Shown: positions 23,540-56,938 of the stretch, piece by piece
Layout of the letters: each line of letters opens with the position of its first letter
How positions within the stretch are numbered: the first letter of the stretch is position 1
Assembly: GCA_021234155.1 (NCBI GenBank)
Contig: JAJEKV010000104.1
Location: 2,055,900-2,119,899 of the forward strand
Source of the DNA: Isoetes taiwanensis
Lineage: Eukaryota; Streptophyta; Lycopodiopsida; Isoetales; Isoetaceae
DNA: 64,000 bases
Direction of reading: 5' to 3'
Program-made: the position numbers and the translations under genes
Notes under the pieces: generated by a model
The model's database searches: none
Seen by the model: the letters and a program-made list of their open reading frames with translations, nothing else
Told to the model about the DNA's origin: nothing

Positions 23540-23625
23540 TAATACCCCAAGGTGGGGGCAAGGGGGTATTCGACTTGTGGAATAATTAAGGGGGTATTCA
23601 ATTTGTGGAATAAGCAAGGGTATTC
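23540..23625. repeat. GGGTATTCG motif cluster, partial (A/B junction)
   Basis: Left part of the motif cluster, cut off at about 23625 where unit B begins. It marks the duplication junction. Confidence 0.75.
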
Positions 23626-33504: not shown

Positions 33505-33533
33505 AACAAAGTTTAAAATGAAACGACTTATTT
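33505..33533 (+). repeat. Left TIR of the giant element
   Basis: Starts AACAAAGTTTAAAATGAA and continues to CTTATTT. It matches the reverse complement of 56911-56938 with a few mismatches and one gap. A hairpin, GGAATCTTT-G-AAAGATTCC (33556-33574), lies just inside, and a related GGAATCTTTCAAA lies inside the right end (about 56889-56901). Confidence 0.8.
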
Positions 33534-33931
33534 GGTTGCAACGCACTTCAAAAAGGAATCTTTGAAAGATTCCCTAAAATTCCCTTAAAAAAGTCCATTT
33601 TTAAGATTTTTTTGTGACAGGTGTGACAATTTAGGTAATTTAGGTACCTTTTTTGAGGGGTTGATTGAACATAACTTCCATGCAAAAATTTTAAATAGCA
33701 ATTTTCATCCTCCTAATTTAGAACCAAAAATAGTTACTTATATAAAGTGTAGCAAAAAAGGGGCAATAAAAAAAATAGCAAGGGTAGTAGATTGACAACG
33801 AAGTGATATATTCAAGGTTGTGAAAATTGTACAAAATTATGAACAAAATTGTCAAAAATATAGGACATTTTGACAAACACTCATCACCGCACACTTTTTG
33901 TTCTTTACATGTTCGAAGTCATCGGACAAAC

Positions 33932-36377
33932 TTACATTTTGCAAAGAATATCGATGCATCTCATCCTCGACTCATTTAATCCCCGATCACTTGAGCCTTC
34001 ATCCTCGACTTCACTCTCAAAACCGGATGTATTTGAACTATCTTCTTCCTCACCGTCTACAAGTGAGTCTTCATCATCATCTTTTTTGGCCACCTTTCTA
34101 GGTTGTTTGTCTAATCCACATGCCGACCTTATTAAAGTTTGAGTGACCATACGTAACTTATTAGCAGCAGTAAGAACAAAGTCATATGCAAGAACCTTTA
34201 CTTCAGCTAGATCTATGACAGCAGTGTTTGCTTTGGACTTTGCTCTCTTTCCTACTCCTGTTTTTATCATCTCCAAAGTATAACTCCCACTGAAAGCATT
34301 GGCAGCATTTGTTCTCATCCAGTGCACATTTAATTGAGTGGGAATTCCATCCTCTCTTGTTACCTTCTTCAAGATTTTAGCTAGCTAGCGTAATGGCTTC
34401 CCAGATTCATCATTATCACCGGGACAGCTATGAGCATTCCTTTCAATCTCCGAGGCCAACCGAGACTCGAGCAACTTGTTGTGCCGTGCGTCTGGGGCCA
34501 GTGTACATGACTCTGTCATCTTCATCTGAGCTAGCCATGATCTCTACATATTCCTCTTGATTCTCAACTTGCACAGGGAGAGTTTGCCTAGATGGCCAGT
34601 TGAATGTAACTGGTCTTCGACCTTGTAATGAAGCTTCCAACATGTCACGTTGCCGAGAAAAAAACTGAGGCCACCATAAAGCATCTGCCTCCCCAAAGTG
34701 GTTAGAGCACGACTGAATACTTGTCTCAATATAATCCAATGATTTGTTTGAGTCAAATGCTCTTTCCTCCTTTTTACTCTTTGTGATTTCTTTCAAGCTT
34801 TTTAGAGGCATTTGCTCTGCAGAGAGCATAGAACTAGTATTGGGGATGGTGCGAATGAATTGAATACCTGCTCCTGGCTGCCACTGCAAGGATGTGGCAT
34901 ATTTCTTTTCTTGTAAGATGGCCTTGCCATCTACAAGTGAAATTTTGATCTGATGCTGAAATGTAATGTTTCTCAAGGGCTCAATAGCACAGTGATCCAG
35001 TTGATCTCTCCGAAAAATCCATTCCTTGAAATCATAAGTTTCTTCTAATAACTCGATGTCTGGACGAGGATTGTAGGAATCTTGGATAACCTCAATCATT
35101 GCTGGTAGGCTGAGAGCTTTTTTTCGAGCAAGACGTTTAGAGAACCTACTGAACATCTGATCAATTTGATCGTGTGTATGACCAACAAGCAGGAAACCAA
35201 TCTTCACCTTCTTGAAGATTTGTTTCTCAACTAGCATAGCACAATAAGCAAACGCCGCCTGATTCTTATTTTCTCTTGTCGTGTTGTCTAGCTGAAGATA
35301 TATAGAACCGGTGGTATATGTTCTAGATTGGAAAGAAGCTTATTCAATATTGTGATAGTGAGATTTGGATCAGCATGAATGTTTGGATAGTTCAAAAATG
35401 CCTTGCAAGATAGTTTTCCATTAAATACCATAGCACCAACAACATGCAGGTGTATGAAATCTTCTTCAGCAGCATCCTTAGGCACATTGACAAAATGTGG
35501 TAGGGTGGTCTTCTTCTGGTCCATTCCATCAATAACAACCGATATGTAGTTGAGTGGTTGTTCCAGTGCTTTCTTCCTATGTTTTGTCAATTTTCTCCTT
35601 TCCAAAGATTGTTGTTCTCTTCGGTTGTTGTTTCTCTTTTCAATGCATCTGAAATGAAAACATGTTTAGAAAAGAACCTACTTTTAAGTAGAACTAGGCA
35701 AGAACACGCCCCGAAGCTTACTTTTAGTGTGAAGTGTCCTTGCATTTTGTCTCCGAAGCTTTTAATTCGAGCATGTAGCACAAAATAGACATCCGGTGCT
35801 TTCTAGGAATGGACACGAAAAAACTTTTTTTTCCGAGAGCACACATGAAGTAAGAGTAGCGACATGGCGCTTCTCCAAAATTCAACACACATGTCCTTAT
35901 AATTATCGTAGACTTCACGTTTCGCGAAGTTGTCACCAAGTGGTACATGGGGCTGTTAGGGGTTTCTCGCAAGACTCCTTAAAGAAACCTTCCATCCGAG
36001 GAAACACATTGAAGGGCATGAATTCGGATATACCTCCCCGAATGGCGGTAGTCATTAATGCCCGGATTCTTGTCAAGCCTTTTCTTCTTGCAGCGGTCAA
36101 GTCGCCTGCCGCCTAAAGCATGAATCAATTTAAAGGTTGTTTGACGGACGGTTGTGGCCACCAGTATTGTAAGTAAACTTCTCACCATAATCCGCCTAAT
36201 ATTGAAGGCTAAGTAGCCCCTTTGGTCTAGCAGAGTCATTGAACTGTAACTATCACGAATCAACCTCAATTCCTTTAGTCCAATCTTAAGCAAACAACGT
36301 TGAGAACAACAGTGCTTTGTATGTGTTGCCCTCAAGTGAGCCTCGTCCATGAGTTTCTTTCTTTTTGGGTTGTACAT
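33932..36377 (-). pseudogene. DUF7869-type transposase-like protein, frameshifted
   Basis: Several minus-strand blocks fit one gene. 36377-35979 (starts MYNPKRKKLMDEAH) has a Cys motif, HTKHCCSQRCL. 35650-35290 has NYISVVIDGMDQKKTTLPHF. Next come LQLDNTTRENKNQ and FLLVGHTHDQIDQMFSRFS, then a C-terminal part to 34443. A last acidic block (34372-33932, KKDDDEDSLVDGEEEDS) follows after a frame change and stop. DGMDQ, LDNTTRENKN and GHTHDQID are the hallmarks I associate with the plant DUF7869 family, a probable DDE-like transposase. The frame breaks at a 2-bp AT insertion (VLYI versus VLYLQLD) near 35299. Probably the element's own transposase. Confidence 0.72.
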
Positions 36378-36419
36378 GCTTTCTTGTGTAAGTTACGCTT
36401 TTAAGATTCTTACTTGCGT

Positions 36420-36950
36420 GAGCTTTGAATTCAACATAGAGTCTTGTGGCTTTGGTAGGTCCTCGTCTGAGAGATCAACATGAGGTGTTTCTTCGTCTCA
36501 GAGATCAACATGAGGTGTACTAGTAGATGCTGAGAGGTTTGGTGTGGGCAAGTCCTGGGGGGAGGTGCTTTCCCTCTCTGTGGGAAAAAGTAATCGAGGT
36601 TGGTGACGTAATTGACCAGCTCCGGGGTGTCGTAGAACACGGGGAGTTGCGTGGCGCACCGCCCCCACTTGTTGTGGTACCATTTAGCCAAAATGGATGG
36701 AGTTGGCGTGATTTTGCCTCCCGGGATGCACCCTACGGTGGACTATATGGGCGACGACTAAAAATGAACTGGAGGAGGTAGTCCGGCTCTCTTGCCCGTG
36801 GTGGAGTAAAACGCATTGGTGGGGGCAAACGACGTTCGTGAGCGTGGTGTGGTGGAGTAAATTGAACAGTGGTGGAAGCCGAGGTGGTTGTCTTTGGAGT
36901 AAACTCAACAGAGCGGGGGTTTGAATATCGGAGGCGAAATTTTCTTGGCT
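36420..36950 (-). other. Proline-rich putative 5' exon of the DUF7869-like gene
   Basis: The minus-strand frame upstream of 36377 encodes FTPP repeats (EFTPKTTTSASTTVQFTPP, then MRFTPPRARE) and, after frame changes, KWYHNKWGRC. Its position between the conserved blocks and the palindrome cluster suits a low-complexity N-terminus, but splice sites and start are uncertain. Confidence 0.4.
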
Positions 36951-37048
36951 ACTTCACAGTGTCGGTTGAGGTGGAGTGAAAGTCATTGCGGGAGGAAGCC
37001 TCGCTAACGAGAGTTGAGGCTCTGCAGCTTTTTCTCTCGAGCCATCTT

Positions 37049-37735
37049 GTATAAATTTATACTCTGATTTAAGAGCAGACGGTATATAAATTTATACGTA
37101 GATGGTATAAATTTATACGAGAAGGGAAACTCGAAAGCGGATTTGTATAAATTTATATGAGAGATGGTATAAATTTATACTGAGGGAGGGCAACATAGAA
37201 ACGTAAACCAGATAAATTTATACGAAAACTCACAGACACTTGTATTGGAAACTTTATGGAGAAACGCTATACGAAAAGGCACTTAACAGAGGTACTTAAG
37301 CCCGGCGCCGGTCACTCTATTTTCTACATATGTCGCCGGAGTCGAAGGCCGTGGTCAGCGCCTTTATATACCCTCCCCTCCCCCAATTTGCTCCTCCGAA
37401 CAGCTATAAGCGAATCCATACGATCATGGCCACGTAAGTCTCTATTCCGTACTATTCTAGTTTCTCCTCTCTTTTAATCTGTTGAGTCTAAGGTCCTTCT
37501 GTATAAATTTATACCGAATGTGTTCTGGAACGGTATAAATTTATACGCCTCGAGCAAGAGTGGTATAAATTTACACCACCGCTCGTGCTCGAGGCGATAA
37601 ATTTAATTTATAAATTTATACCGCTCTTCTCGGCGTGTTTATCACGAGTTTCGCAACGGTATAAATTTATACCGCCTTTGCTCGAGGCATATAATTTTAT
37701 AATTGCTCCGCAACACATTCGTATAAATTTATACG
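37049..37735. repeat. TATAAATTTATA palindrome cluster, left side of the giant element
   Basis: Ten perfect cores by eye: near 37050, 37085, 37106, 37146, 37168, 37502, 37534, 37609, 37660 and 37722, plus near matches at 37212 and 37564. Most extend to GTATAAA/TTTATAC. Some flanks extend the symmetry further: CGG/CCG at 37657-37674 and CG/CG at 37720-37735. The cluster lies at the presumed 5' side of the DUF7869-like gene. Function is unknown; symmetrical flanks suggest dimer-binding sites or hairpins. Confidence 0.93.
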
Positions 37736-38040
37736 TAAGACAACGTTTGTGGCTTCTATTCTCGTAAGGTGTCGAGAGTCTAAAAAAATGTCCTGAACCT
37801 TAGTAGTTGAGTATTAATGTTGAGTTTTAAAGGTCAAATGACACAAATAAAGGGTTAAAATAGCGTGCATTTTAGGTCCTTTTTGCCGCCAGCTTTTCTT
37901 ACGCTTTAAAGTGTCCAAAATAGTGGCTTAAAACCGTATTTTTGGTGTAAAATGGGTTTTTTGCTCCTTTTCGTTAGCCCAAAGATCAAGTTCACCGTAG
38001 AGGCCAATCATCAAAGGCGGCACCACCGAGCCACAAACAT

Positions 38041-38256
38041 ATGAACTGCCGCACCGACGTGACGCGGGTAATGCGCAATGTGGGAGCGAGAGAGCGCAAA
38101 CCCACAGAGGCATACCTTTATTTGTATCACCAGTCAGGGAGGGGAAAGTTTACCAAAGATGATTACTACCCCGCCGGGGAAATGATAACACTTACTGCAA
38201 CTGGAAATGAAGATGAGATTTTAAGCATAATTTCATTATATATGGACTTTCCCTAA
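38041..38256 (+). CDS. Unrecognised small open frame
   Basis: A 71-residue frame from an ATG (MNCRTDVTRVMRNV, later GRGKFTKDDYYPAGEMITLT). No family recognised. The stop falls in a hairpin, arms ATATGGACTT (38240-38249) and AAGTCCATAT (38255-38264), that may mark an element boundary. It could be a remnant exon. Confidence 0.3.
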   Translation: MNCRTDVTRVMRNVGARERKPTEAYLYLYHQSGRGKFTKDDYYPAGEMITLTATGNEDEILSIISLYMDFP

Positions 38257-39599
38257 GTCCATATGACTCCCAAATGGACCCGAATTTTTAGAATATAGGG
38301 GTTTTATTTGTTAGAATGATGCAAAATTTCGGGAATCGTGTAGGTAGGTGAGATGACAGGCCTTATATCTATTAAGCCAAAGAAGTGCCATCCAAGTTTG
38401 TGTCCCGCCCAAGCGCCTTCACTATAGGTGGTCTTGCATCAAAACCGCTTTCGCGAACTGGCATAGTGTAGATTCATAGTCGGGGACACTCGAATAGTCC
38501 GAACTGACGCAAATGATGGATTCACAATGAGCGAAAATGCCCCCATATCCGCGAGCCAATATTAGCTCATGCGAACCACCGCAGGTTGAGGTCTCAGAAC
38601 GAGATGAACCGTAATGGAAATGTAAGAAATCGACGCCAACTCGTGAAGCTCTTGTAAGTCCATATATATCTCAAATGCCGTAAGTGTATAGAATAGAGGG
38701 TGTATAGCACAACATAAGTGGATATAATAACATTTAATGCGAGACATTCATTATATATAAGCTTACAAACATATGGAGCATATAACATTATGACTAAATG
38801 TACAAGAGGTACCTGAATTGGGCGGGCAATTTCGAAGTTACTTCTATGCCGAAATAGTCAATAGATAACAAATAATTCTCAAAGGGTCGCTGTTCTTCGC
38901 CTTTCGTGCCTTTTTCGTGTTCTTCAATGCTTGAGCTTGAGCTTGCTTGAGCTTGTCAGAGCATCTTTCATACTTTCCATCCTCTCCATGAATTCTTGGG
39001 AGCGGGTAAAAGCATGAAAGGGTGTACGCATATCGCATCAATTGAAGGACTAATTTGTGCTTTTTTGGGGTACATTTTTAGATGTACATCAAGATACTAT
39101 GGTTTGTCGCTTTGTGTCGATATGCAATGATTGCAAGATCATCCCCGACATTCCCCAAATTTTGGTTAACCACCTAACCAATTCAATGAATGGATCCGCC
39201 CCTCCCTTTCCGAAATTCCCCCCTTTCACAGTGATCTAACATCAAACGAATTCCGCAAAAACATACAAGAAATACAAAAATCAATTTCAATCTGCTCATG
39301 GAGGGTGAGAATTCCAATGGAAGTGATGGTTCTAAGCTAAATATGCCGACATTGGCCGCTGTTATGAACAAATAAAGCAAAGTGTTGACAGGTCGGTGGA
39401 TTGCATCCTCGCTTGCCGCAAACGCTTCGGCCCGTGATCAAAGATTAGTTTTTGTGATCGCTTGTTGCAAGATGACAGGCTTTTTTCTGCTTTTCGAACC
39501 CAGAATTGGAAATCCTTCCCGGTTATTGTTATGAAATCAATGATCGAAACTTGAAAGATGGGCTTCAAGAAGTAAAGTCCGCTAATAGCAAAGATAAAT

Positions 39600-42186
39600 T
39601 GGCCAAAAAACATTCACCATGCTATCAATGATTGTTGGAAAAAAAGGAGATATAAACAAGAATGTTTCTTCAAAATTGCTAAAGATACACCAAGAAATTT
39701 ATCCAAAGTCATAAAGAAGAAGGAAGATAATGTCATTAAGGGAGCAAATGTATGGGCTTTGGCAGAAGGATGCCAAGATCAAATAGAATCGATGATTCAA
39801 TCAAATGTCGTTCGTGGAATTTTGGCTTGACAATACCAAAGTTTCACCAAAGGTTAGAGATGTCATGAAGAGGAGAACACAAGCAATACAATACCTTGAT
39901 ATCTCACAGTTTGCTCTTGTAATTGAATCAATTCAGTTTTGGAGATTATGTTTTCTTCCAAAAATTTTTTATGACTTTCTTCCTCAGACATTCTAGTTCG
40001 TTCGAAAGTGACCGTTAATGAATACACATGGTTTTCATGAAATGTATTGCATTTTACATTGTTTACATTTATACATTGTTTACATAGTAGCAGAAATCTT
40101 GCAAGATGTGCTATTAGGTACTTTTAGATGTACATCCATTAACACTTACATGTCCATGCAAACAAGCATTTACATGTACTTGAATATCAAAATTACATCA
40201 TTTTACATTTTAGTGTACTTTCGTGTAATGAAGCCAAACAAATCAGACATATGTACATTAGTTGTACTAATATTGTAACATTAATGTGATGTACTAATAT
40301 TGGAACATTAATTAGATGTACATTGATGTACATTGATGTTCATTGGGAACTGGTATCGTACATTAGATGTACCGATGTACATTAGATGTACATTAGATGT
40401 ACAAGAATGCATCGTTGAACTGTTGGATGGACATTTTATGTACATAGAACATACATTAATTGTACAATAGTATAGTTCAATACTCTTTTGGCATCTAGTT
40501 GCCGACATCATTTTGCTAACATGGTCTTTAATGCTTTTGTTATTGCAACGAGCTTTATCATCAGCTTTGTATATCGTAATCCCGATACCAAAATTCGCCC
40601 CGATACCGAAAGTATCCAAACCCGATTGCATAAGGAAATTGAAGGAGAGAAACACATGTTGTTGTGTCAAACATGAGCAAGCGGATCCGCACGTAAAGGC
40701 CTTCAATGATATGAGGAGATCCCTACATGTTAATTGCACTTGTCACGCCGCAAAGGTTGTCGCGGCATCCCAAAGAAAAACAATGGAGTATGTCAAGCAA
40801 ACAAGAAGACTTTTGATAATGTTAGTATCTTGTGGAGGTCAACAAATTATGAAATATGTGACGGATGAATGGCATAAACTAAAATGCATCAAAGGCTTAA
40901 TGTGATGAATGTGGAGTGAAGAAATTAGACATCCGGTCCAAACGAGGAAGATGGAATTTAATGTGGACCGGCAAGTATATGCATATGTCAATGAGCCATC
41001 CAAAAAGGTACATCCGTAAGGCTTAGATTAGTTGATCGAATGACAAAGCATCCGCTTTGTTAAAGAACATGAAAAATCAGCTTGCTAAGTTTACGATCAT
41101 AACTTTACAAAGACACCGCGCAGAGTAAACAGCTTTAAAAGATGTGTTGAGAAACTCCCGATAATAGTGTGTTGTCCGTTGTTGACTTTGCAGAATTACA
41201 CATTGAAACCAGGGACAAAAGTGCAATCCGAGCATTGGAATCCCTGATCAAATTAGTATTTTGGTCCATATTTCAATGATGAAAATAGAAGGTAAGCTTA
41301 AAAAAAAGGCATTTCTATGTTTCGGATGACAGAAAGCATGACACTCATTTTGTGCAACATGGTTTTAAATTACATTTGGGGTGGCTTAAGAATAATGGAG
41401 GTGGACACATAAACCTTCATTATGTGTGGTCTGATGGTTGTGCATCTCAATTCAAATCAAGAGACGGCATGGTATGGAATCAGATACCATGTTGAAAATA
41501 AAATTCGAAAGTGATATGGAATTTCTTTGGATCCGCCATGGGAAAGGCACACATGATGGCGAGGCTGGTATAGCAAAGTTGTGGCTTGAGAGCGAAGCAG
41601 AGAAAACAAAATGGCATGCCGACAGATAAAAAGCGTAAACAAATTTGTGCGCTTTTAAGGGCCAAGGAATCTGGATTGTGAAAGGGTGTTTTGGGAGGTT
41701 GGAAAAACAGATGTGAACAGGCAAAGAAGCATTCAATTGCAAGACTTTACCCGGTACTCGCCAGATACATTCTCAGGTCAACTATAAACCCAGCCAGATC
41801 CAACAAAGTTGCTATGCACCACTCTTGTGCTTTTGTGATGCTTGCATTAACTTCAATTGGTTGAATTGTGAGAACATTAAACATTGTGGAGAATGGTCTC
41901 TAAAAAGTTTGGAGCCCACAGATCATATTGCCTCTCGTGGTTGAAGCCGAAAATGATGTGGATGTTTTGTATGCAGAGGACGAGGTCGGTTTAGATGACA
42001 CCCAGAGTCGCTTTCAGCATGTATTTGTGTCTTTTGGCAAAAGACCGCATAATGTGGAAGGTGTTTCATACTATGTTCTCATGTGCACCAGTGGAAAAGC
42101 ATGCATTGGAAGAAGATTCAATTGATGACTATGGAAATGAATACTCACCGGCACTAGTGTCATTGAAGGACAATATTATGAACTAA
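39600..42186 (+). pseudogene. DDE-like transposase of the SDGC...QFK / HGKG...DG family, degraded
   Basis: Plus-strand fragments in order: FWLDNTKVSPKVRDVMKRR (about 39815-39870), an AT-rich gap with ATGTACAT repeats (an intron or insertion), KPDCIRKLKERNTCCCVKHE (about 40618-40675), DFAE-NYTLKPGTKVQSEHWN (about 41183-41240, one base lost), SDDRKHDTHFVQHGF (about 41324-41370), VWSDGCASQFKSR (about 41427-41465), HGKGTHDG (about 41538-41562). I know this block order from uncharacterised TE-type proteins of plants and animals; the Asp residues in DFAENY and SDGC look catalytic. Many frameshifts; not functional as read. Confidence 0.68.
40120..40480. repeat. ATGTACAT cluster 1
   Basis: Many copies of ATGTACATT and relatives in both orientations, densest at 40315-40410 (GATGTACATTAGATGTACATT). 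It lies in the gap of the SDGC/HGKG gene. Confidence 0.85.
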
Positions 42187-42454
42187 TCCCAGTCGCCACA
42201 ATAAGTATAAACCGCTTCCTACTAAGAATGTTTTGGTACCGCAGAATCTGTGATTGGGGTTCAATCCCATTCAAGAAAGTAAAACACAAGTCAAGGGGCA
42301 AGCACAAAGATTTCACTTGCCGATGAAGTCCATGAGACATTGTTATCACAACTTCCAGCAATTGTAGATGACATGGACTAAGTCGACTGTAGTACTTTCC
42401 CTGAAATATTGTAATACTTTTGTTATAAGAACTCAAGAACTGACTACTTCGAAG

Positions 42455-42525
42455 TGCATTATGTACATCATCGTACATAAGATGTACAACAAATGTACAT
42501 CTTATGTACATCCGTTGTACATTCC
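42455..42525. repeat. ATGTACAT cluster 2
   Basis: Seven GTACA-containing palindromic units in about 70 bp just downstream of the SDGC/HGKG gene, for example GATGTACAACAAATGTACAT and CTTATGTACATCC. Confidence 0.85.
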
Positions 42526-42529
42526 AAAA

Positions 42530-45500: not shown

Positions 45501-46215
45501 TTACCATAACCGGAGATGTTTAACAAAAATTAGTTCATCTTGGACATACCTCTTTCTAGGTGGTGGTGGCACTTTTTGCCCGAGATTTTCTTTCGAGGAC
45601 ATTTTTTGTTGGCCGAGATTTTGCCTGCTTTTTTCCTTTGGAGTGCCATCACCAAAGATTCTTTTGCCTCCTCTTTTGAGTGGACTCAACTACCAACTCA
45701 GCCTTCCTCTTCCCCCGGTATCTCCCCGGATAAAACTGATCTCGGTCCTTTGTAGCTTTTTCCTCAGAATGTGTCCGTAACCGGACCCGGCAGATGATGC
45801 CGAGACGTGTTTAATCTTTCTTAGCTTCTCCAATTACTAATTTAGCACTTGGTGATGAAAGAGTTTCTCGGTGCAGCCATTGAAGGCTCCGCACCGCAAT
45901 CGCTTTAGCTTTCAAGTGCCATCCTCTCAATTTCCTCAACTTCACTTTGCCATGTTCGAGGAGGCACCGCTGGCGTATGGTTCTATTATCGGGTAATCAG
46001 AAATGTCATTGGTGATCCGAGCTCGAAGGTTGAGGGTCTACTGATTCTGGCCCGCTTATTATGCTCAAGAAAAATCAGAAGAGAGTCGATGCAGATGGCT
46101 CAAGAACATCAGCCATTAAAGCCGCTTCGATAGGAACAAAATTTCATCCCAAAACAAACAAATGATCTAAATTTCAATAGACATAAAAGAACATGAAAAC
46201 AAACTAATGAGAAAT
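42530..46215. other. Degenerate stretch with no gene I can name
   Basis: Short open frames on both strands, the longest about 110 codons (44749-45084, plus), none with a recognisable domain. A lysine-rich minus frame (45689-45501, MSPLKRGGKRIFGDG) may be an exon of the coiled-coil gene to the right. Isolated ATGTACAT copies occur (42646, 43276, 44490), so it belongs with the nested element. Confidence 0.4.
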
Positions 46216-46219
46216 ATCC

Positions 46220-46680
46220 GTACATTCTCGCCAAGCATGTACATTTCATGTACATAAATGTACCAAATGTACGAATTACATTTAACTATAGCCAAATGTA
46301 CATGTACATGTTCCTCAATGTACATAGAGGTACCTCAATGTACCCGTGATGTAAATTCGTGATGTACCTGTGTATCCAAGGGGAATGTAGATCTATGCCC
46401 AAAAAAGCACATATATGTAAAAATGCACATACTTATGAATCCATCTACGATGCACTCTAAAGATAAATGCATGTACATCTATTTGCAGATGTAGACTCCA
46501 TTAGAGACATGTACAACTCGATACAACCGCAATCCAAGCTCAAAAATAAAAGCATCAATAAACAAGCAAATATATGCCTATGTACCTCCTCAACACAGAT
46601 GTACACTAAAAAGTTATACATGTACAAGGAATAGCAATGCAATCGAAAGCCATACATGTAGAACTATGCGATTACAATAA
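46220..46680. repeat. ATGTACAT cluster 3
   Basis: Dense GTACAT/ATGTAC copies (such as CATGTACATTTCATGTACAT at about 46238) over 460 bp, in both orientations. Confidence 0.85.
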
Positions 46681-46858
46681 CAAATATGAATGAAGAGAAA
46701 TATAAGTTTAAATTAGTTGAGAGCAATGCATACCTTTCACAAAGAGGGAAACCAAGTCAATTCAATGCCCTCATCCCGTGATGCAACCTTTTATGCAATT
46801 TGCCTTTCATGGACTGTGATAACACAAGCGTAAGAGGCAATAAGCATCTCGCATGGAG

Positions 46859-47935
46859 CTAGCAAAGAATAAACCCGCTTTTGCCAAAGCCTTGGCCACA
46901 AATGTACATGAACCTAATGTGATGAACTGCTTTATAGAAGTAGCTCCTACTGTAGGGCCTCGGGTGCGTAACAATAGGTCCCGCTTCCCCATGAAATCCA
47001 AAAATCATGGAATGCCTTTGTTGAACCAATTCAATGCAATTAAGTTTTTCCTTTGCTTGTTCAATTGAGATTTCATGCCTTTCAATGTCTTTAGTTGCTT
47101 CCCGCAAACCAATTTCTAGCTTAGAAGAGTGCCGTTTTTTATCATGTCTACTCATAACCAAGTCTTCCAACTTGTACTTCAACACCAAGATAACTTGATT
47201 TCCAAAGCAGGATCCTCGGGACAATTTGTCAAATTCCCGCTTTGTCTCATCTATTTTCTCGGGCAGACTGGCCGCAGATCTTCTGATAGCATATCCTTTC
47301 TACCCTCAATCCGCTGATGACCTTCAATGCATCCCTCCTTTTTCTTCCAAAGGCTTCTACTTCATTCAATAGGTTAGTTTTCTCCTCCAACCCATGCTTA
47401 AGTAATCGCTTTATTGTGTCAACATCCGATCTAGAATAACCTGTGGCTCTAATATTCTCACGCAATACGATGTCCCCGCTTGATAGTTGAGGATTTACCT
47501 GCTGTAGGGTCCTCTCAGACGCCCCGAAATGAGGGTTTTGGCAAGATCTTTGGCGGTCCTAGCCACGCCCATCCAATCAACAAGCCGCCCCTTCAAGTGA
47601 AGAGCAAATGCTCGCAAAATAGGTTGAAATATAATGGTTTGTAACCCGCTTTCTTGCCATAAACCAATTCATAATATTTAAAAATCATCTTTCCATGCGC
47701 TCGATTCTCCCTTCCTTGAATCCTCGCCTCTGCTTTTTGAGCTTCACCCCATACCTCGCTCATAACCATCTCTAGGTTGGGTATGTGGGCCTCGCGATGT
47801 TTATCACAGAGGTCTTTGGCTTGGATCACCTCGTAACCCAAACGTAAACTCCTTGAGGTAAAATTCCACCGCCGGAAGCACCGCATCTTGCTTGGCTGTG
47901 GTGATGAGCAAGCACTCATCCGGGGCGCTTTGGGG
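46859..47935 (-). pseudogene. Coiled-coil protein of the nested element, frameshifted
   Basis: Minus-strand blocks: WPQSAPDECLLITTAKQDAV at the right end (about 47935-47875), then YEVIQAKDLCDKHREAH and GRENRAHGKMIFKYYELVYG (to about 47600), a second block at 47465-47247 (GLEEKTNLLNEVEAFGRKRR) and a third at 47224-46859 (SKLEIGLREATKDIERHE). Helical, charged residues dominate, suggesting coiled coils. Frames change between and within blocks. I do not recognise the family. Together with the transposase on the other strand it may be the second protein of the nested element. Confidence 0.45.
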
Positions 47936-48379
47936 CCATAGCTAGATGAAGAATTCGATCGAATTCAAGCAGAGAAGGCAGGGCGGATAGTGAACGAGAG
48001 GCAAACCAAGAAAGAATTTGGGAAAGAATTTCAAAATCCAATAATTGCGGTTCGAGTAGTGGATAGCCATTAATCATGGCGCTTACTAGCTGGTCATGAT
48101 GACATTATTCCAAAATGTGCATTCTAAGTACATATGTATATGTACAAAAAGGGCTACATTTATAGACACCCTTTCATGCTTTTACCCAAATAAGGACTTA
48201 TTTCCCTCCTCTTCTACCTCATGTGGAGTTGACTTCTCAATCATCAAGACTCTCAAGAATCTCTTAGCCATTGATTCTCGCACAAAGAATAAATCTTCTG
48301 TTAGAAATCGTAAGGTTATGCCAATTAAAAACACGCCATTTAAATACCTAATATTAAGACAAAAGAAAACTTTCTCCCA

Positions 48380-48770
48380 AGGGCCAAAAATGAGCTGGCC
48401 CAATTTGCCCTGTGGGTTGTTACCTTGCATGGCAAATGTTTTCCCCAAGGGCCAAACCGGCTGGCACCCAATTTGCCCCTGGGGTGTTGTCTTGCATGGC
48501 AAAAGTTTTCCCCAAAACCAAACCGGCGGGCGCCCAATTTGCCCTAGGGGGTGTTGCCTTGCATGGCAAAAGGTTTCCCCCAAGGTCCAAATTGGGCGGG
48601 CGCCTAATTTGACCCGGGGTGTTGCCTTGCATGGCAAAAGTTTTCCCCAAGGGCCAAATTGGGCTCAATTTGTTCTCTGGGTGTTGCCTTGCATGGCAAA
48701 ATGTTTTCCCCAAAAGCCAAACGAATGGCCCCTTGGCCTTTTCAAATTGGGCGGGCGCCCAATTTAAGGG
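48380..48770 (+). repeat. Tandem repeat, about 64-bp period, with GGGCGCCCAATTT blocks
   Basis: About six units of GTTGCCTTGCATGGCAAAAG, then TTTTCCCCAAGGGCCAAA, then a more or less complete GGGCGGGCGCCCAATTTG palindrome. A long open frame runs through (48096-48767) but only because the period avoids stops. Non-coding in my view. Confidence 0.85.
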
Positions 48771-49720
48771 GTTTCCGGGATGGCAGAATAAACTTTTTGG
48801 CATAACTTTTGCATCCGGACTCCGTTTTCAGCGTTTTTTATCTCGTTGGAAAGCTTGTTCAGAGGGCTTTGATAAAGGCAAAAACCAAGCATATGATTTA
48901 TAGAAGTAGACCCTGAAATTGGGCTCAAATTGGACGGGCGCCCAATTTTAGGGGCTCAAGGGTGGCAGTATAGGTTTCTCGGCATAACTTTTGGTTACTT
49001 GACCAAGCTTTTGGCGTTCTTTAGCTTCTTGGAATGCTTATTCAGAGGGCTTTGATAAAGAAAATAATCAAGCATAAGATTTATCTAAATGGGCTCCAAA
49101 TATGGCTCAAATTGGGCGGGCGCCCAATTTGAGTGGCTCCGGGTGTCAGAATACTTTTTTTGGCATAACTTTTGCATCCCGACCCGCTTTTGGCGCTTTT
49201 TATCTCGCTGGAAAGCTTGTTCAGAGGGCCTTTCAAGCATACTGTTTACATAAATGGGGCTCTAAATTAGGCGGGCGCCCAATTTGAGCGCACAAAGGTG
49301 GCGTATGTATACGATTTTGGCATAACTCTTGTATTCTGACTCTTTTTGGTGCTTTTAGCTCGTTGGAAAGCTTGTCCAGAAGACCTATAAAGCATAGTTA
49401 CACAAATGGGGCTCTAAATTGGGCGCCCGCCCAATTTGAGGGGCTCCGTGGTGGCAATGCATAGGATTTTTGGCATAACCCATGTATTCTCGACTGGTTT
49501 TTGGCGCTTTTAGCTCGTTGGAAAGCTTGTCCAAAGGGCCTTTCAAGCATACCATTTACACGATATGGGGACCCAAATTGGGCCCGCCAAGTTGAGGGAG
49601 CACAATGGTGGCGATATGTATACCTGGCTTTTGGCATAACTCTTGTATTCGGACTCCTCGTTGGAAAGCTTGTCCAGAGGGCTTTTCATGCATATTATTT
49701 ACACAAGTGGGGTCCCTTGA
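48744..49720 (+). repeat. Tandem repeat, 150-185 bp period, each unit headed by a GGGCG palindrome
   Basis: Six units start at about 48744, 48927, 49109, 49264, 49416 and 49574. Each has AAATTGGGCG, two bases, CGCCCAATTT (perfect at 48744-48765, 49109-49130 and 49416-49437; one mismatch at 48927 and 49264; decayed at 49574). A body with TTTTGGCATAACTTTTGCAT and CGTTGGAAAGCTTGT-CAGAGG follows. Spacer bases are GG in most and CC at 49416. Confidence 0.88.
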
Positions 49721-50210
49721 TAAAGTTCGGCCTAGGGATAGGCACGTGGGCACCTATGGAATAATGGAATCTCAGTAATTCTACCTATAGAGCAAGATAA
49801 TCCTTATAGAGCAAGATAATCCTAAGGATGTGCGCTTCTAAAGCATACTAGCATAGCAAAAAAAAGATAGATGGAAAAGGTGAAAACAAGAATAAAACAT
49901 ATAGAATGTGGATTAAGCTAACAGGAAAAAAGGCCTCCATACTCTACAAGCAAGAAGAACATAGATCTATGACAGATGAAGAGAACAAGCTTGAAAATAA
50001 GCACCTGTGATTATTCTCCTTCTGCTATATCGATGTAGATGAAGATAGCGGCCTATAAGGTATGGCGCCACTGATGCAAATAAGATGCTTAATGATGTTA
50101 TCAGCAAAGAATGGAGGTCGATGTGCCAAGAGCTAGGCGTGGTGCTCTTCTGAGAGAGAAGGAAGAAATAGGGGCCCCCTTTTCCCTCCCCGGCCATTAG
50201 AACCAAACGC

Positions 50211-50465
50211 CCACGATTCAAATTCAAATTTTGAATGTGGGCCCGTTGCGTTCCCCATCTCCCCTCCCGCCCACCATTCAAATTCAAATTTTGAATGTGG
50301 GCCCGTTGCGTTCCCCATCTCCCCTCCCGCCCACCATTCAAATTCAAATTTTGAATGTGGGCCCGCTATGCTCCCCATCTCCCTCCCTTCCATGATTTAA
50401 ATTCAAATTTTAAATGTGGGCCCCTGCTGTTCTCCTCAAGACGTGATTCAAATTCAAATTTCACC
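50211..50465 (+). repeat. 60-bp tandem repeat, about four units
   Basis: 50221-50280 and 50281-50340 are identical; 50341-50400 and the next unit are diverged. Each contains AATTCAAATTTTGAATGTGG and a C-rich stretch, CCCCATCTCCCCTCCCGCCC. It is open on the minus strand only because the period is a multiple of three. Confidence 0.93.
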
Positions 50466-51212
50466 CCCCATATTACATGACTACCTATGCAGTTGCAGAG
50501 CAGTATTGGGCATTTTACTACAGGGCGATCGGCTCCATCACTAGCTTGGCGACTGCGTCTTTGCTGATAACATCATTCAGTGGCGCCCAGCGACTCTAGT
50601 CTTGCCTCTACTATGTTTAAAATAGAGGTATGGTTTCTTTTACATATTTTTTGATTATGTAGCTTTTATCAATCTATGTTTTGGTCATCTTGTGTCTAAT
50701 AGACGAGTTACTTGTATTGTCTCCAGTACATAATTTTTATATCCATTCTTGTTTAATGTTTCTTCCCAATATCATGTGCCCATCTTGTTCAGTTAACTTG
50801 AATTCTGTAAGAGGCCAATGTGATACTTCAGTAAAAAGTATCTCAATCTTCAAAAGGGTGATCTGGCTATTTTAGTGGCCCCATCTAAATTGTTATTCTT
50901 TGAGCGCCAAAGCCTTCTTTACCTATATAGGTTGTCATATCACACAGCACAGTTCATGAGATGCACTTTGCTTACTTAGACCGACTCAAGCATTTGCTTA
51001 CCTAGACCACCCAATATGTTTGCTTACCTAGACCGACTCAAGCATTTGACCACCCAATATGTTATCGTATGACACAGTGCCTGTCCACTTTTCCTATCTA
51101 AATTAGGTAGTCGCCCAGTATATTTATAGATTTCCTATCTAAATTAGGTAGTCACCCAGTATATTTATAGAGGATAAGGCACCTGGTCCATGAGATTCAC
51201 TTTTTCCTATCT

Positions 51213-51764
51213 AAATTGGGCGGGCGCCCAATATGTTTATAAGATAAGCCCCCGGTCCATGGGATTCACTTCTTCCTATCTAAATTGGGCGGGCGCCCAG
51301 GATAAGCCCCCAATCTATGAGATTCACTTTCTCGTCACTAAATTGGTTCACTTTTTTCCATCTAAATTGGGCGGCCGCCCAATATATGTCTGATAATGCT
51401 GTGTCACACTCGTTATTGGTTCCCTTTTCTCCACCTAAATTGGGCGGTCGCCCAATATGTAATGCTCCTCGACCGATCACATAGGGACTCTTTACACGCA
51501 TTCATAGACAGATCGCACACACTTACCTACCTACGGTCGTACGTAATTATGCATGTCATATCACCGTAAGAGTTCCCCGAGATGCACCTTCAAGCAGAAT
51601 ATATCCGTAAAGCTAAACCATTTAAATTGGGCGAACGCCCTATTCACAAGTTTTTTCGCTAGAAACATCCATACTTATCATCTCTTTTGTTTGTTTACGA
51701 TCATAAGATTCAAAGGATTCAAATAGCTTTTGAATCCTCATTTCTAAACTATTTAAATTGGGCG
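51213..51764. repeat. Second cluster of AAATTGGGCG-N2-CGCCCAAT palindromes
   Basis: Palindromes at 51213-51234 (spacer GG), 51282-51300 (GG, cut short), 51364-51385 (GC), 51437-51458 (GT) and 51624-51644 (AA), with a half site at 51754. The arms hold while the two central bases vary, the pattern of a site read by a dimer. Surrounding sequence has short repeated phrases (TTTCCTATCTAAATT) but no gene. Confidence 0.88.
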
Positions 51765-53150
51765 ATTTCGCGTAAACTTACATATCTTGTTACTAGAAGC
51801 ATTTACGGATCGTAAGCATGAAGCCAAATAACATTAATAAGATTGAAATCCCCAAATTTGAAGCCTAATTTTGAGAACTTTCACATTCATATTTTAACTT
51901 ACGGGATCTAACTTCATCTTCAGATTTCGGATTATTTGCTTCGTGGTTTGGACCCTTTCATTTCTTCAATGAGTTCTAGCAGCCTAAAAGGAATGTGCAA
52001 GACCGCTTTTACTCCATAAGTAAATGTATGATGAGCGCATCGATGGAACAAGTATCAAGTGAAGAAGCGTGCAATGATTCAGTCGACCTTCGATTCACTT
52101 GTAGGTTATTAACAAAAAAAGATCATGTATACGCATTTGAGACCTCTACCACGACCTAGCCCGACCAAAACTCTGTTGCCCTTACTTTTTTAGCCCGGAC
52201 CGGCTTCGAGCTTCGGAGAGCCGATGACATCTCTCATTCTAGCCGCCATACCAAGAACACTAGCCCGCTGACATCGCATACCTGGTAGCTCCCCCATCGC
52301 TGCCTGGCACCAAGCACAGCTACTCCGCCAAGCACAGCTACTCCGCCATAGCCGCCCTGTTACGTTGAGAATTTAGGGTTAGGTCATGTACATTTATTTT
52401 ATTGCCCTAAGTTTTTTTTTTTTTTTTTTTTTTGGAGTGCCATTTCAAATATGAATATCACCTCGTTGAAATGTATGCCATCACACATGTTCTTCTACCT
52501 CTATGTTGCATCCCAACTAGTATTACAGGTTGCATCCTAACTACTAGTACACGTGAATGCTAATATGGAGGTTGTGTAGGTGTGCAGTTTGATCACCATG
52601 GCATTATGAGCATTATGATGGATATGGCGACTTGCAATTTAATTTGATCCACAATGTGAAGTCACACATGATGTTGGTATATGACATGTTGGCCGACTGA
52701 TGTTGGAAGAAGAGATCGAGGCCAACAACTCCTAGTTACCGTCGATCTATGATCTAGAGGTAACATCCAATATCGACCCATGTAGGGACCCCAACATGTG
52801 GTAACTCATTTTTATTTACGTCTAGCATTGGCTCTAAATTACAGCGTCTATGATCTAGAGGTAACATTCATCGTCAACCCATGATCTAGAGGTAACATTT
52901 ATTGTCAACCCATGCAGGGATGGTAGCTAGTTTATGAAGCATATGCAGCACTCGCTTGGGACGTCTGTTAGTCGACTATGCTTGGGAACCGTCGAACAAG
53001 AATAAGATACCCAATACTATCAAGATACACGTGCATGCTGCTGAGGCATATGCAGCACTCGCAGGGGATGTCAATTAGTGTATGGAAAAGAGTCTGATGC
53101 GAGAAGGCCAAAAAGTGGTCCATAAATTTAGGTATTGTCCATAATTAATG
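51765..53150. other. Stretch without a recognisable gene
   Basis: No convincing coding sequence. It holds a 22-base T run (52412-52433), a short duplicated phrase, GCACAGCTACTCCGCCA (about 52314-52347), and repeated GATCTAGAGGTAACAT phrases (about 52750-52900). Upstream exons of the ParB-like gene could lie here but I cannot identify them. Confidence 0.45.
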
Positions 53151-54380
53151 AAATTGTGCTTTTTTGATGAAGTGCAATCATGACAGCGGTGAAGTCTTTT
53201 ATGTTCTGAACAGCAGAATGCTCCTCATAAGCATGTGCAGACCTAAAGACGTCCATGATTACATGGCGGAAAATTACAAGAATGGCTATGTAAGTATGTC
53301 TTAGTGGCTTCATGTATAAATTTATACCGTCACCTTTCTAATTTACCCTGCATTACAGGACATAGTGGACATTTTGTCCTCAGTAATACTTTGTGAAGAA
53401 AAAGAAATGGTAAAGGGTCTTTGGTACCCACGTCCTCAAGAAGATGTCGAAAAGGACGACGTTTCAGAACAAGAAGAGGAAGAAGAGGAGGAACCGGTGG
53501 TGCCAAAGGGAAAGGGTAGGAAGCATTCCCTGGTAGTAGATACACAGCCTCCTACCAAAAAGAAAAGAACCACAAAAGCCTTGACTATAGATGAGTCTGC
53601 AGAAGCTCTCCAGAAGGCTCCTGGAGCAGATCTTGTTGTGAAGCCCGCAGATAAGTCAAGTGCTATTTTAAAATGGGTTAATGACACTAAACTGCTCAAG
53701 CAAACCATTTCTTTGACATTGAGCACTATTAAGAGGCCACCTAAAAATGAAGATGGTGTCAGAGTGCTTCAGGTCCGGAAGCTGTACGCGGCACATGTGG
53801 CTATACTGAAGCAAAGAATGAGAAGGAATCCTCATGCCCATGTGTCGCCACTAGTTGTAATGGTTGACAGGAGTCAGTGCAACCAATTAAAAGATTACAA
53901 AAAGGCTGACTTCGAAGATTACACCTATTATGTTCTTGGAGGCACACATAGTTACAAGGCAAGGAAAGAACTATCAAAGGAAGAAAGCCGTAACTAAGTG
54001 GATGAAGAGGCAAAAGTCATTGCCTTGAGTCATAATCTCGACAATGACTTCAGATTGAAAATGAGCCTAATAGACAAGATCCGCTTTATGCACCGAGAGT
54101 ACGTGGAGTTCAAACACGTGCATGGAGAGGACTTTAAAAAACAAAAAAACAAGCTCCAAGAACTTCGAGAAGCTTGTGTCACAGAGTGTTGCCTTAGCTA
54201 TGATTCAGATAAGAAGCCCATAATGGCTGTGAAGCAGTACGACAATTACTTCCAACTTGCCTTCAGAGATGGTCAAGTAAGTAAAAGCTTTAATTTAGTC
54301 CTCTGTAGTATCCTTAGCATAGCTTAATTTGTGTATTAACATCGAACTTTGTAAATACGTACCAACCATGGAAGCCTGGT

Positions 54381-54516
54381 CACGGTATAAATTTATACCG
54401 TGGCTGGTCACGGTATAAATTTATACCGTGCCGAGGTCACGGTATAAATTTTATACCGTACCCAGGCACGGTATAAATTTATACCGTGACCTGCCACGGT
54501 ATAAATTTATACCGTG
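54381..54516. repeat. Five-unit array of 22-bp palindromes in an intron
   Basis: Units start at 54381, 54409, 54438, 54467 and 54495, spaced 28-29 bp. Four are perfect 22-bp palindromes, arms CACGGTATAAA and TTTATACCGTG; the third has one extra T. Spacers are short (such as GCTGGT, ACCTGC), often continuing the symmetry with GGT/ACC. The array sits between a GTAAGT donor at about 54279 and the exon that starts near 54600. Confidence 0.95.
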
Positions 54517-55598
54517 ACCAGGCCACCGTGTGCATTTAGACAGTAGACTGCGCAACAAACACTTGTACGCCATTCAACACTAAACTACTTGTGTTTGATT
54601 ATTGTGGGATCTTCAAGAAAGAATATTTTGTATGTTCGAGGATGGTGAGCTGAAAGAACAAGCTAGCTCTGCAGGAAAAAAACCAAAAAAAGGTGGTGAA
54701 GCAAAACAAAAAAACATGAGCATTGTACCCTGGACGCAGCTACAGGGTTTAAAAAGCAAAGAAATTTTTGTGCTTAATTTTAAAAAAAGTAGTGGCCAAG
54801 GAATTCACTCTAGACGAAATGGCCAAGGAAGCTAAGACGTAAGCCACGTTTGCTATGCCGTGTTCTTTTTTCCCACATTTTGTCTTACCACATTTTTCCC
54901 TCTGCAGTCAAAAAGACATTGTCACCTGCCAGGCCGAGTTAATGAAGCAACTAAACCCGAGGACTTTGGAGGAGTGCAAGCTTTTATATCCAACTTGTAT
55001 TACGATAGTATTATCGAGAGCACGCCGTTAACTTCAAAGTATCGGGTAAGTTTTACGAAAAAATACTTTTTGTTTTCGCGGCCTTTGTCTCACGCTTTTC
55101 TTACGTAACAAGAAGAAAGGGCTACCAACGTGTTTTTAAACTTGGTTCAGAGGGCCAAGGAGGAGAGGCGGCCGAAAGGCCATTGAGCGAGGGAAAAGAA
55201 GCCGGCACTACAAGTTTTGACACTAGCTATGAGAGATTTACGACATGTGGTCGGATCGCTTGTCTGTGGTTGTTGTCGGGAGATTGCACGCAGGTCGGGA
55301 ACTCTTTTTGGACAAGCAAAATTTTACACCGCGGCATTGCGCATATTCCATACTTTTAAAATTAAGGATAGCGCTTTTGACGAGGGAGGCCTTCACGCGA
55401 CGCAAGTCCGCGCTTTTTGGACGGCTGAAGGAAGTCACGGGCCACATCCGCAAACCGGAGGGTCATCATTTTTCATTCCGACCCGCAGACGATGTCGGTG
55501 CTTTTTGCCATTGGGAGTCGCCAGAACGCTGGCTTCAAAACCGCTGCATGGTAAGCTTTAAATTTATTGCTTTCCTATTTACTATAACACCACCTGCT

Positions 55599-55732
55599 TA
55601 AATTTATACAAAGAAGCCGCTTCGTGGTATAAATTTATACAAAGAAGGCAACCTTCAGATAAATTTATACTGAAGATCTACACCATGGTATAAGTTTATA
55701 CAAAGAAGGCAATTGTGGTATAAATTTATACC
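55599..55732. repeat. TATAAATTTATA palindromes between methyltransferase-like exons
   Basis: Perfect cores at 55627-55640 and 55717-55732, a one-mismatch copy at 55688-55701, a partial at 55599, and a copy at 55653-55675 with its own extra arms, CTTCAG and CTGAAG, and one base missing. Another perfect single copy lies in an upstream intron at 53314-53327. Confidence 0.92.
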
Positions 55733-56456
55733 GCCACACCACTCGAACTAACTTATTTTCTTTGTTTTCTTTCTACTAATTTTTAATTGTTGTATTGTTT
55801 GGCGTGGGCTAAAAATAAATGTCAAGGGACATGGTGGTGGTCCGCTTAGTAAGTCAAGTTTTGAGCATTTCCATATAGGTTTTACAAATACGGACGCCAA
55901 AAAGACCATGGTTCATTTCAATACGCGCAATGAGAAGACTCCTCCTCGCAACGCTTTCAATTTCCCTACCGCTCGCAAAATTGAGAGACCCACGACAAGG
56001 CTACGGGTATCCCATTATCGGGGCTGCACGAGGCTAATTAATAATTTAATACGGTGGTTTTCTCGCCCGAGACCGGATTTTGATGCATTTTCTCGCTCAA
56101 GCACCATTAAAGAAGCTTGCCCTTGCTGTGGGCTAACGCTGTTCTCTCGACATAGACCCGGGATAAAATAAGTTTCATCGTGACCGGATAAGCTCTTGTG
56201 AATCCTTTCCCGATGAAAACGAGGAACCGGGAGCAAAGAACGGTGTTGGCGATGTTAAAGGCACGATACGTAAATCCAAAATCCACTTACCGAAGAAGAG
56301 ATGAGGAAGTGGAGTTTGTCGACTGAGCCTATGCGCTACCGAGAAACCTCTGCATTTGGAATCGTATGTGTGCCTCTCGCTATTGTACCCTCACAAGAGA
56401 TGATCCTAAGGGGTAATGAGTCCCGTGGACCGGAAGACCCACCTCCTCCACCTCCC

Positions 56457-56470
56457 GTATAAATTTATAC
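56457..56470. repeat. Last TATAAATTTATA palindrome, 3' of the methyltransferase-like gene
   Basis: Perfect GTATAAATTTATAC, about 470 bp from the right TIR. From here to the TIR the DNA is AT-rich with no gene. Confidence 0.92.
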
Positions 56471-56910
56471 AGTCAGGATTATAAACTAACTTTCATTGTA
56501 AACTATGTGCTAAGAATTATAATAATATTTTGATGAAGATTTTTAAACTGAAAGCTTTGTCTCTTCAACAATGCTTAATTAGAACAACTCTTTCTTGCTC
56601 TATGATTTCACACTCTTTGTCTTTCCTATGTTTGATTTTCTTAGTACTTATATTAAGCTTGCAAAAAAAACAAACTATATTTCCTTCTATTTTCAACAAT
56701 AAATACTTATTGAGTTTTCAAATTTAATGTCTCTCTCCTCAAAACAAGCATTTTTTTTTGCCCTCTTTTAAAAATGAAAAGGCTTCAAAAATGTTGTTTT
56801 TTTAGGGGTATTTCGAATGCTACTTGCTCAACAATCTATTTTGCTCCCTATTTTGTCCGCTTTTTTTCAAGTTTCCAATTTTTATAAAGGAATCTTTCAA
56901 ACGACTTCTT

Positions 56911-56938
56911 AAATAAGTGCTTCATTTTAAACCTTGTT
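56911..56938 (-). repeat. Right TIR of the giant element
   Basis: Ends TTCATTTTAAACCTTGTT, imperfect reverse complement of the left TIR, followed by AATACCCCC of the split repeat. Confidence 0.8.

Follow-up and report, generated by a model that had tools for sequence, protein, structure and literature searches.

Introduction

Transposons whose own protein recognises a short motif clustered in their family are known from Arabidopsis, where VANC proteins of the Mutator-like VANDAL elements act in trans on such motifs (PMC5735166, PMC10398659). In the sections of these reports used here, the motifs are non-coding, lying in introns and upstream of another gene (PMC5735166), and related VANC proteins affect different elements, protein and motif having diversified together (PMC5735166, PMC10398659). 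Here we analyse a 64,000-nucleotide stretch of the lycophyte Isoetes taiwanensis (GenBank assembly GCA_021234155.1, contig JAJEKV010000104.1, positions 2,055,900 to 2,119,899 of the forward strand; hereafter the window). It holds a DNA transposon with clustered palindromes, a DUF7869 gene and a divergent gene for a ParB-like segment and a DNA methyltransferase; an earlier reading of the letters (the original prediction) had proposed a system resembling bacterial ParB–parS. The Isoetes element shares with VANDAL the presence of clustered non-coding motifs that differ between related elements together with a protein. The second gene of the Isoetes element is DUF7869, and its target duplication measures 4 bp. 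The VANDAL report nowhere describes the VANC21 motif, YAGTATTAY, as a palindrome, and its cited sections mention no methyltransferase (PMC5735166), whereas the Isoetes gene is predicted to encode an amino-methyltransferase, in a lycophyte host.

The component parts also have precedents. Phage fusions such as P0001 of PV036460 have a ParB-like domain followed by an N6/N4 methyltransferase. These, however, are single-open reading frame (ORF) genes, and their match to the methyltransferase query covers 77% of it at 26.7% identity. Bacterial beta-class adenine methyltransferases (CcrM 6pbd, MboIIA, RsrI) have the same motif order and are the best matches in the PDB, whereas the Isoetes gene is carried by a eukaryotic transposon that also holds clustered sites of its own. 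DIRS retrotransposons are eukaryotic transposons with an adenine-methyltransferase-like domain, of a different methyltransferase class and a different transposon class, and we know of no private palindromes in them. Bdelloid rotifer N4CMT is a methyltransferase of bacterial N6_N4 type that a eukaryote acquired and that acts on transposons; unlike the Isoetes gene it is, in the sections of the report cited here, a host gene with a chromodomain, a repressive reading and an SPPY motif, and is not described there as transposon-borne (PMC8885841). Fungal DNA transposons with TET/JBP genes similarly carry a DNA-modification enzyme of their own, but one that, as the cited part of the report has it, oxidises methyl groups and does not add them (PMC12730594). 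The red alga Asparagopsis taxiformis is given, in the passages used here, 66 N6_N4_Mtase genes and a DNA transposon content of 33.48% (PMC12115072); by analogy, these genes may be transposon-borne and a similar case. None of the open-access papers listed in our search of the literature described an element like that of Isoetes.

Results

Palindrome clusters in non-coding parts of a transposon family

The window contains 18 perfect copies of the 12-mer TATAAATTTATA and 5 with one mismatch, 23 in all, every one of them within positions 37050–56469. In 100 shuffles of the window the mean was 0.62 sites and the maximum 3. The perfect copies had been counted correctly in the original prediction, which gave six near-perfect ones; the sixth is probably a copy near 54443 with an inserted T, recognised by eye. 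Across the genome (1,658,258,908 bases in 1,110 contigs) the 12-mer occurs at 14,884 places as against 327 for the reversed word, so that the palindrome, which had been called private, is private to the element family and not to this copy. Related elements carry variants in which the frame GTAT-N6-ATAC is constant and the centre is AAATTT (family A, to which the window element belongs), TCCGGA (family B) or GAATTC (family C). Paired 14-mers 5–30 bp apart were found 4,852 times in the genome and 0 times in the control. In 21 family A loci, 307 of the 383 14-mers identified with at most one mismatch are perfect and 76 have one differing base, while their flanks vary.

A gap of about 15 kb separates the two groups of palindromes in the window. 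It proved to be a nested insertion, which places both groups in one element, as had been supposed; in accordance with this, the element has matching termini and AATA/AATA target duplications. Without the insertion it measures about 8.5 kb, like other copies. Family A has inverted termini of the form AACAA[AG]GTTTAAAATGAA..., and the window copy starts with AACAAAGTTTAAAATGAA... at exactly 33505 and finishes with ...TTCATTTTAAACCTTGTT at exactly 56938. Inspection by eye revealed a 4-bp target duplication in eight of the nine copies showing both ends, L018 being the exception.

Sites are located upstream of the DUF7869 ATG (the divergent promoter), in introns and at the methyltransferase stop codon. 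None of 374 perfect A, B or C sites lies half or more inside a coding match, as counted over loci with at least 600 coding bases, in which coding matches make up 94,162 of 245,286 bases.

Ten arrays, sampled mostly by contig order, comprised four with genes (L013, L016, L019, L020) and six gene-less ones (L011, L012, L014, L015, L017, L018), L012 retaining a 26-residue remnant. All six align to the left-end sequence of the element among the matches listed, and both termini are present in L012, L017 and L018, which identifies them, as judged from alignment, as members of the same element family. In the original prediction, palindromes occurring equally often in elements lacking the gene were to count against it. 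Palindromes do occur in such elements, but the six cases found belong to the same family, as a trans-acting protein predicts, and the retention of sites by gene-less copies argues for action in trans.

Neighbouring sites are 28–33 bp apart in 127 of 235 pairs in family A and 41–42 bp apart (about four helical turns) in 51 of 63 pairs in family B; the three family C sites in L025 are spaced by about 115 bp. Helical phasing of the sites was considered and rejected: the spacings cluster, but unit duplication explains this equally well, and the 28–29-bp class does not fit.

A predicted beta-class methyltransferase under past purifying selection

The ParB-like/methyltransferase gene has at least six supported exons and a proposed tiny first exon, and its last two exons encode the methyltransferase. 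In the window copy the gene is broken by a stop, a short deletion and the insertion, and both methyltransferase motifs have decayed; in the ParB-like exon the stop is at 53995–53997, with about 14 residues lost beside it. A Pfam scan of the window copy's own ORFs at 53.3–56.5 kb gave no convincing family. We attribute this to decay, since the better-preserved relative L004, whose exon limits were taken from tblastn, shows the domain clearly. Its last exon matched PF01555 with an expect value (E) of 1.3e-15 and 58.4 bits, compared with a curated cut-off of 26.7, bearing out the methyltransferase-like gene proposed for the window. It also matched phage methyltransferases (3.9e-16), PADLOC type II methyltransferases (4.3e-17) and NCBIfam CcrM (3.8e-11, far below that model's own cut-off). 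The best PDB match of the spliced domain was CcrM (E 1.3e-9), and a profile of five spliced copies matched phage ParB-methyltransferases across the whole domain with a probability of 98.2.

Among segments matching the respective patterns, 26 of 27 have ADIPYGF or ADLPYGF as motif IV and 26 of 32 have LDAFSGSGT as motif I. In relatives the [DNS]-x-P-[YFW] motif IV lies upstream of the FxGxG motif I, as in the beta class. These features indicate that the gene encodes a beta-class N6/N4 DNA methyltransferase. An aspartate in motif IV points to adenine, not cytosine, and the D-[IL]-P-Y motif thus makes N6-adenine the likelier predicted target than N4-cytosine. The PF01555-type domain has repeatedly switched between adenine and cytosine targets, according to the section of the report cited here (PMC8885841). 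With regard to a restriction–modification system, scans of the exons gave no nuclease family above cut-off, no nuclease-directed search having been made, and relatives of the family C methyltransferase exon were absent from viral contigs.

We compared stop-free family A copies, a choice that biases the following values downwards, with synonymous differences near saturation: the median ratio of non-synonymous to synonymous substitution rates (dN/dS) was 0.11 in the ParB-like exon (21 pairs), 0.07 in linker exon E3 (28 pairs) and 0.14 in methyltransferase exon 1 (21 pairs; pooled ratio of the corresponding proportions, pN/pS, 0.32), the pooled ratio in exon 2 was 0.30 (66 pairs) and the value for the last exon was 0.12 (3 pairs). 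The gene was clearly under purifying selection in the past.

The palindrome centre changes with the enzyme clade

Sister elements were reached through a genome search for PF01555, in which 150 of 1,444 candidates were scored. Six were chosen: L022, L023, L024, L026 and L027 contain GTATTCCGGAATAC and no family A site, and L025 contains GTATGAATTCATAC sites together with one A core. Their B or C sites are again located in introns and upstream. Another 19 pieces, picked from methyltransferase matches, had B-type sites in 12 cases, C-type in 2 and none in 5, none meaning that the 2.1-kb piece fetched held no 14-mer A, B or C site.

A methyltransferase tree was built from 35 rows, leaving out those shorter than 100 residues (L013, L026, L043). 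Clade and palindrome agree in all 30 site-bearing rows: 12 A rows fall on one side of a branch (support 100/99), 15 B rows form a second clade (100/100) and 3 C rows a third (98/98). The densities of the cores show the same separation. Core A reaches 13.9 per 10 kb in A loci (n=21), is absent from 19 B loci and occurs once in 6 C loci; core B reaches 6.4 per 10 kb in B loci, and its two sites in A loci are both in L013, beyond the A array. Genome-wide, the family B word was found 3,720 times versus 0, and the family C word 64 times versus 11. Seven matches have at least 94% identity to the family C exon; C words lie within 6 kb of four of them (C1037, C1059, C1043, C1034), C1055 and C1002 have no C word among the matches listed, and C1094 is outside the listed range. 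Degenerate searches for other paired centres gave none above control (1 versus 14, 0 versus 5, 0 versus 11), although widely spaced sites of the family C type would escape them.

These comparisons indicate that, rare exceptions aside, the six inner bases vary with the enzyme inside an unchanging outer GTAT...ATAC. The original prediction suspected that gene and palindrome are coupled, and this link is a strong one, since a different enzyme clade brings a different palindrome. Of the 61 cores with a single mismatch in the family B loci (L022–L024, L026, L027, L033–L046), 42 show a C-to-T or G-to-A change at the central CpG, as expected if those copies underwent host cytosine methylation and decay.

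A candidate ParB/sulfiredoxin-like domain

One exon of the relatives contains a GG[TN]HS[YF]KAR box, with GGTHS or GGNHS at its start. The three PHROG families matched by most members are ParB-like; phrog_1033 gave 4e-6 with L025 and 0.0012 with L004, and phrog_723 was matched by five of seven members. When profiles were compared with the PDB, six of nine weak matches were sulfiredoxins (Srx-1, E 1.2–2.3), ranked below unrelated entries; sulfiredoxins share their fold with ParB. Searches with tblastn found two records of one phage, ParB-like, at E 0.1, and nine plasmid matches, eight of them ParB-like (E 0.8–4) and probably representing one protein in related Pseudomonas plasmids; the ninth, the best-scoring, is annotated 'nuclease'. 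Alignment of the domain to the phage protein P0002 with hhalign gave 62.6%. Alignment A1 consists of 7 copies, and the 12-copy profile adds L001, L002, L013, L024 and the window copy. Relatives of this domain were not found in viral contigs. The PHROG, sulfiredoxin and weak phage and plasmid matches lend moderate support to the ParB-like segment of the original prediction.

The DUF7869 gene and its pairing with the ParB-like/methyltransferase gene

PF25273 matched two overlapping ORFs in the window (E 3.1e-41 and 1.2e-7), the first of which secures the DUF7869-like gene claimed to lie beside the sites, and matched L001 with E 7.7e-53. The protein is a probable transposase. A search of solved structures returned one match, at E 1.1 and uninformative, and we found nothing on DUF7869 in the open-access literature.

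Loci L001–L010, picked because both genes were listed close together, have a common plan in which the DUF7869 gene occupies one strand and the ParB-like/methyltransferase gene is divergent. Among the first 100 ParB-like matches listed, at least 31 have a DUF7869 match within 10 kb, on the opposite strand in 30 of 31; among the first 50 methyltransferase matches listed, at least 18 have a ParB-like match within 10 kb, on the same strand in 17 of 18. These counts are lower bounds. Shifting the ParB-like positions by 1 Mb left no pairs in either comparison (0 of 100 for DUF7869).

Features of the window and its surroundings

Table 1. Positions of the transposon, its genes and its palindromes in the window
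Feature	Position	Strand	Remarks
Complete transposon, family A	33505..56938	.	Termini as in other copies; alignments to L003 and L004 span the whole interval
Target site duplication AATA, left	33501..33504		
Target site duplication AATA, right	56939..56942		
DUF7869 gene, probable transposase	33935..37045	-	ATG at 37045-37043; frame broken in window copy
Palindrome cluster 1	37050..37222		5 perfect, 1 near-perfect; begins 5 bp upstream of DUF7869 ATG
Proposed exon 1 of ParB-like/methyltransferase gene	37426..37433	+	ATGGCCAC, then GTAAGT
Intron 1, predicted	37434..37977	+	Contains palindrome cluster 2
Palindrome cluster 2	37502-37733		5 perfect, 2 near-perfect; within intron 1
Exon 2, first part	37978..38222	+	
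Nested insertion	38223..53161		14,939 bp, inside exon 2, from alignment to relatives; outside the system
Exon 2, second part	53162..53289	+	
Lone palindrome	53315..53326		Intron 2
Exon with ParB/sulfiredoxin-like domain (candidate)	53359..54276	+	GGTHSYKARKEL box at 53938
Palindrome cluster 3	54386..54511		Intron 3; four perfect CACGGTATAAATTTATACCGTG-type sites
Linker exon E3	54602..54839	+	96% identity to L004 over 57 residues
Linker exon E4	54909..55019	+	73% identity to L004 over 37 residues
Methyltransferase exon 1	55133..55550	+	Motif IV region, decayed in window copy; ADIPYGF in L004 equivalent
Palindrome cluster 4	55628..55730		Intron between both methyltransferase exons; 2 perfect, 2 near-perfect
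Methyltransferase exon 2	55806..56461	+	Motif I region, decayed; FDAFSRSST, LDAFSGSGT in relatives
Last palindrome	56458..56469		Overlaps methyltransferase stop codon as read in L004

The nested insertion holds tandem repeats of its own, for example GGCGGGCGCCCAATTT-type arrays at 48.4–49.7 kb. Elsewhere in the window, degenerate AATCT-type arrays with units of about 10, 20 and 31 bp and a similar structure occupy 15384–17005, 25200–26807 and 58314–59381. Tandem 27–28-bp GGGGGTATTCGACTTGTGGAATAA-type repeats are present at 17706–17789, 23558–23627, 27517–27599, 33368–33470 and 62127–62201, one of them directly left of the element. A DDE_1 transposase domain (PF03184, E 6.5e-15) is encoded by an ORF at positions 8794–9768 of L004 (minus strand), which belongs to a different transposon just outside the right end of the element.

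Discussion

We propose that this lycophyte DNA transposon family encodes a spliced protein that would combine a ParB/sulfiredoxin-like domain with a beta-class N6/N4 amino-methyltransferase. The protein would recognise the clustered GTAT-N6-ATAC of its own family in the divergent promoter and introns and would methylate the DNA there, N6-adenine being a likelier product than N4-cytosine methylation. Since it would act in trans, gene-less members that keep the sites would be served too, and where a lineage altered the specificity of its enzyme the site clusters would change along with it, each family marking mainly its own copies. The likeliest benefit would be protection of the element's regulatory DNA from host silencing, similar to the effect of VANC on VANDAL elements, and it is because of this analogy that we favour anti-silencing. 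A trans-acting, sequence-specific self-marking system, VANC-like in its logic and built on a bacterial-type methyltransferase, is our best reading of the data, and we hold it with about even confidence. What appears to be new is the combination; the logic has a precedent in VANC and the parts have theirs in phages. The earlier suggestion that the protein binds and perhaps modifies the sites so as to mark the element is supported in part, by the gene, the co-diversification and the trans pattern, its steps of binding and methylation being predictions from sequence. More specifically, the system may be an adenine-methylation address code, in which N6-methyladenine at a family's own GTAT-N6-ATAC would keep that family and its gene-less kin unsilenced, and a joint change of enzyme and central hexamer would give rise to new families. 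This version we put forward tentatively, the chances being somewhat against it.

Several findings weigh against our reading, and they concern both the ParB-like domain and the coupling. Pfam ParB_N (PF02195) had 0 matches across the genome and was not among the families in the Pfam scans, which speaks against the claimed ParB-like segment. The L010 domain matched no PHROG at 0.1, alignment of the 12-copy ParB-like profile with the P0001 set (77 phage sequences) by hhalign gave 0.3%, which is not significant, and unrelated entries outscored those of ParB or Srx type in both the Pfam and the PDB lists. A single-sequence model of the damaged window copy reached a predicted local distance difference test score (pLDDT) of 38 and a predicted template modelling score (pTM) of 0.26. 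The ParB/sulfiredoxin-like assignment is thus weakly supported. As for the coupling, 5 of the 35 tree rows are site-less (L042 and L045 in the B clade; L030, L031 and L032 in the C clade). None of the site-less pieces shows a match to the ParB-like exon, E3 or E4, which would fit truncation; a single TATTCCGGAATA 12-mer is present in L045. L040 was assigned to B on one degenerate site, family C is represented by 3 tree rows with sites, the bootstrap of the tree had not converged, and close relatives within a family are counted as separate rows, so that the 30 rows stand for few independent events. C words (GTATGAATTCATAC) stand beside A-type exons at C925:1930566 and C1060:7001871, in elements outside the tree; the matches at C925:1930744 (69%) and C1060:7001000 (70%), in the identity range of family A, have one C word each within 0.5 kb. 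These two elements may represent stages in a change from one central hexamer to another, or may be exceptions to the rule. Finally, the DUF7869 gene lies in the same element, so co-diversification alone cannot name the protein that reads the sites.

The DUF7869 protein might thus be what binds the palindromes, for assembly of a transposition complex or for autoregulation, with the methyltransferase having some other function. The position of one cluster next to the DUF7869 ATG (Table 1), the divergent pairing of DUF7869 and ParB-like matches and the retention of sites in gene-less members would all fit. Yet the sites are internal, not subterminal, and introns of the methyltransferase gene hold several of the clusters. 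Any reader that the element encodes would be expected to vary along with the sites. The methyltransferase gene is the better candidate, on account of these intronic clusters and because such enzymes typically target hexameric palindromes. We consider a DUF7869 reader unlikely.

Alternatively, methylation could time the element's own transposition or transcription and not counter silencing, in the manner in which Dam methylation controls bacterial IS10 and IS50. Sites in the divergent promoter, adjacent to the DUF7869 start, and an enzyme that is CcrM-like in class would be expected in such a case, but the sites are also packed into downstream introns and gene-less copies, beyond what a promoter needs. 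Timing control appears still less probable than DUF7869 binding.

The partition system originally envisaged would have the protein load on the palindromes and then spread, pair or segregate copies. Palindromes clustered as at parS, the GGTHS/GGNHS box and ParB PHROG matches of up to 4e-6 recall such a system; against it, partition is of no use to an integrated element, the domain joined to the ParB-like one is a methyltransferase, and the ParB assignment is weak, with ParB_N absent from the genome. Segregation or pairing found no support in our analysis, in which gene-less copies carry sites and no search for a ParA partner was made, and we regard it as very improbable. The location of many sites in introns suggests that the palindromes might act in RNA as intron hairpins controlling splicing, which is highly unlikely in view of sites upstream of both genes and in gene-less copies and of family-specific centres in a constant frame, which suit a DNA reader better. 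Passive tandem repeats, arising by slippage and copying with no reader, would account for local duplication and the common spacings of 28–33 bp (A) and 41–42 bp (B), but are very unlikely given the prevalence of perfect 14-mers between varying flanks, three families sharing one frame with different centres, and the absence of sites from coding matches.

The three centres are read by the common restriction enzymes EcoRI (GAATTC), BspEI (TCCGGA) and ApoI (AAATTT). Adenine methylation in land-plant DNA is disputed, and the AMT1-6mA pathway (6mA, N6-methyladenine) is reported, in the part of the literature cited here, to have been lost in plants (PMC12695648). In the Isoetes family a candidate writer is present in a plant at high copy number, along with thousands of candidate target sites and three natural specificities, so that the question of adenine methylation in plants becomes directly testable. 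The system could also supply sequence-specific DNA writers. If these proteins do methylate their own palindromes, transposons would have turned an enzyme of bacterial DNA modification into a code that tells self from non-self, adding a chemical mark to the logic of VANC.

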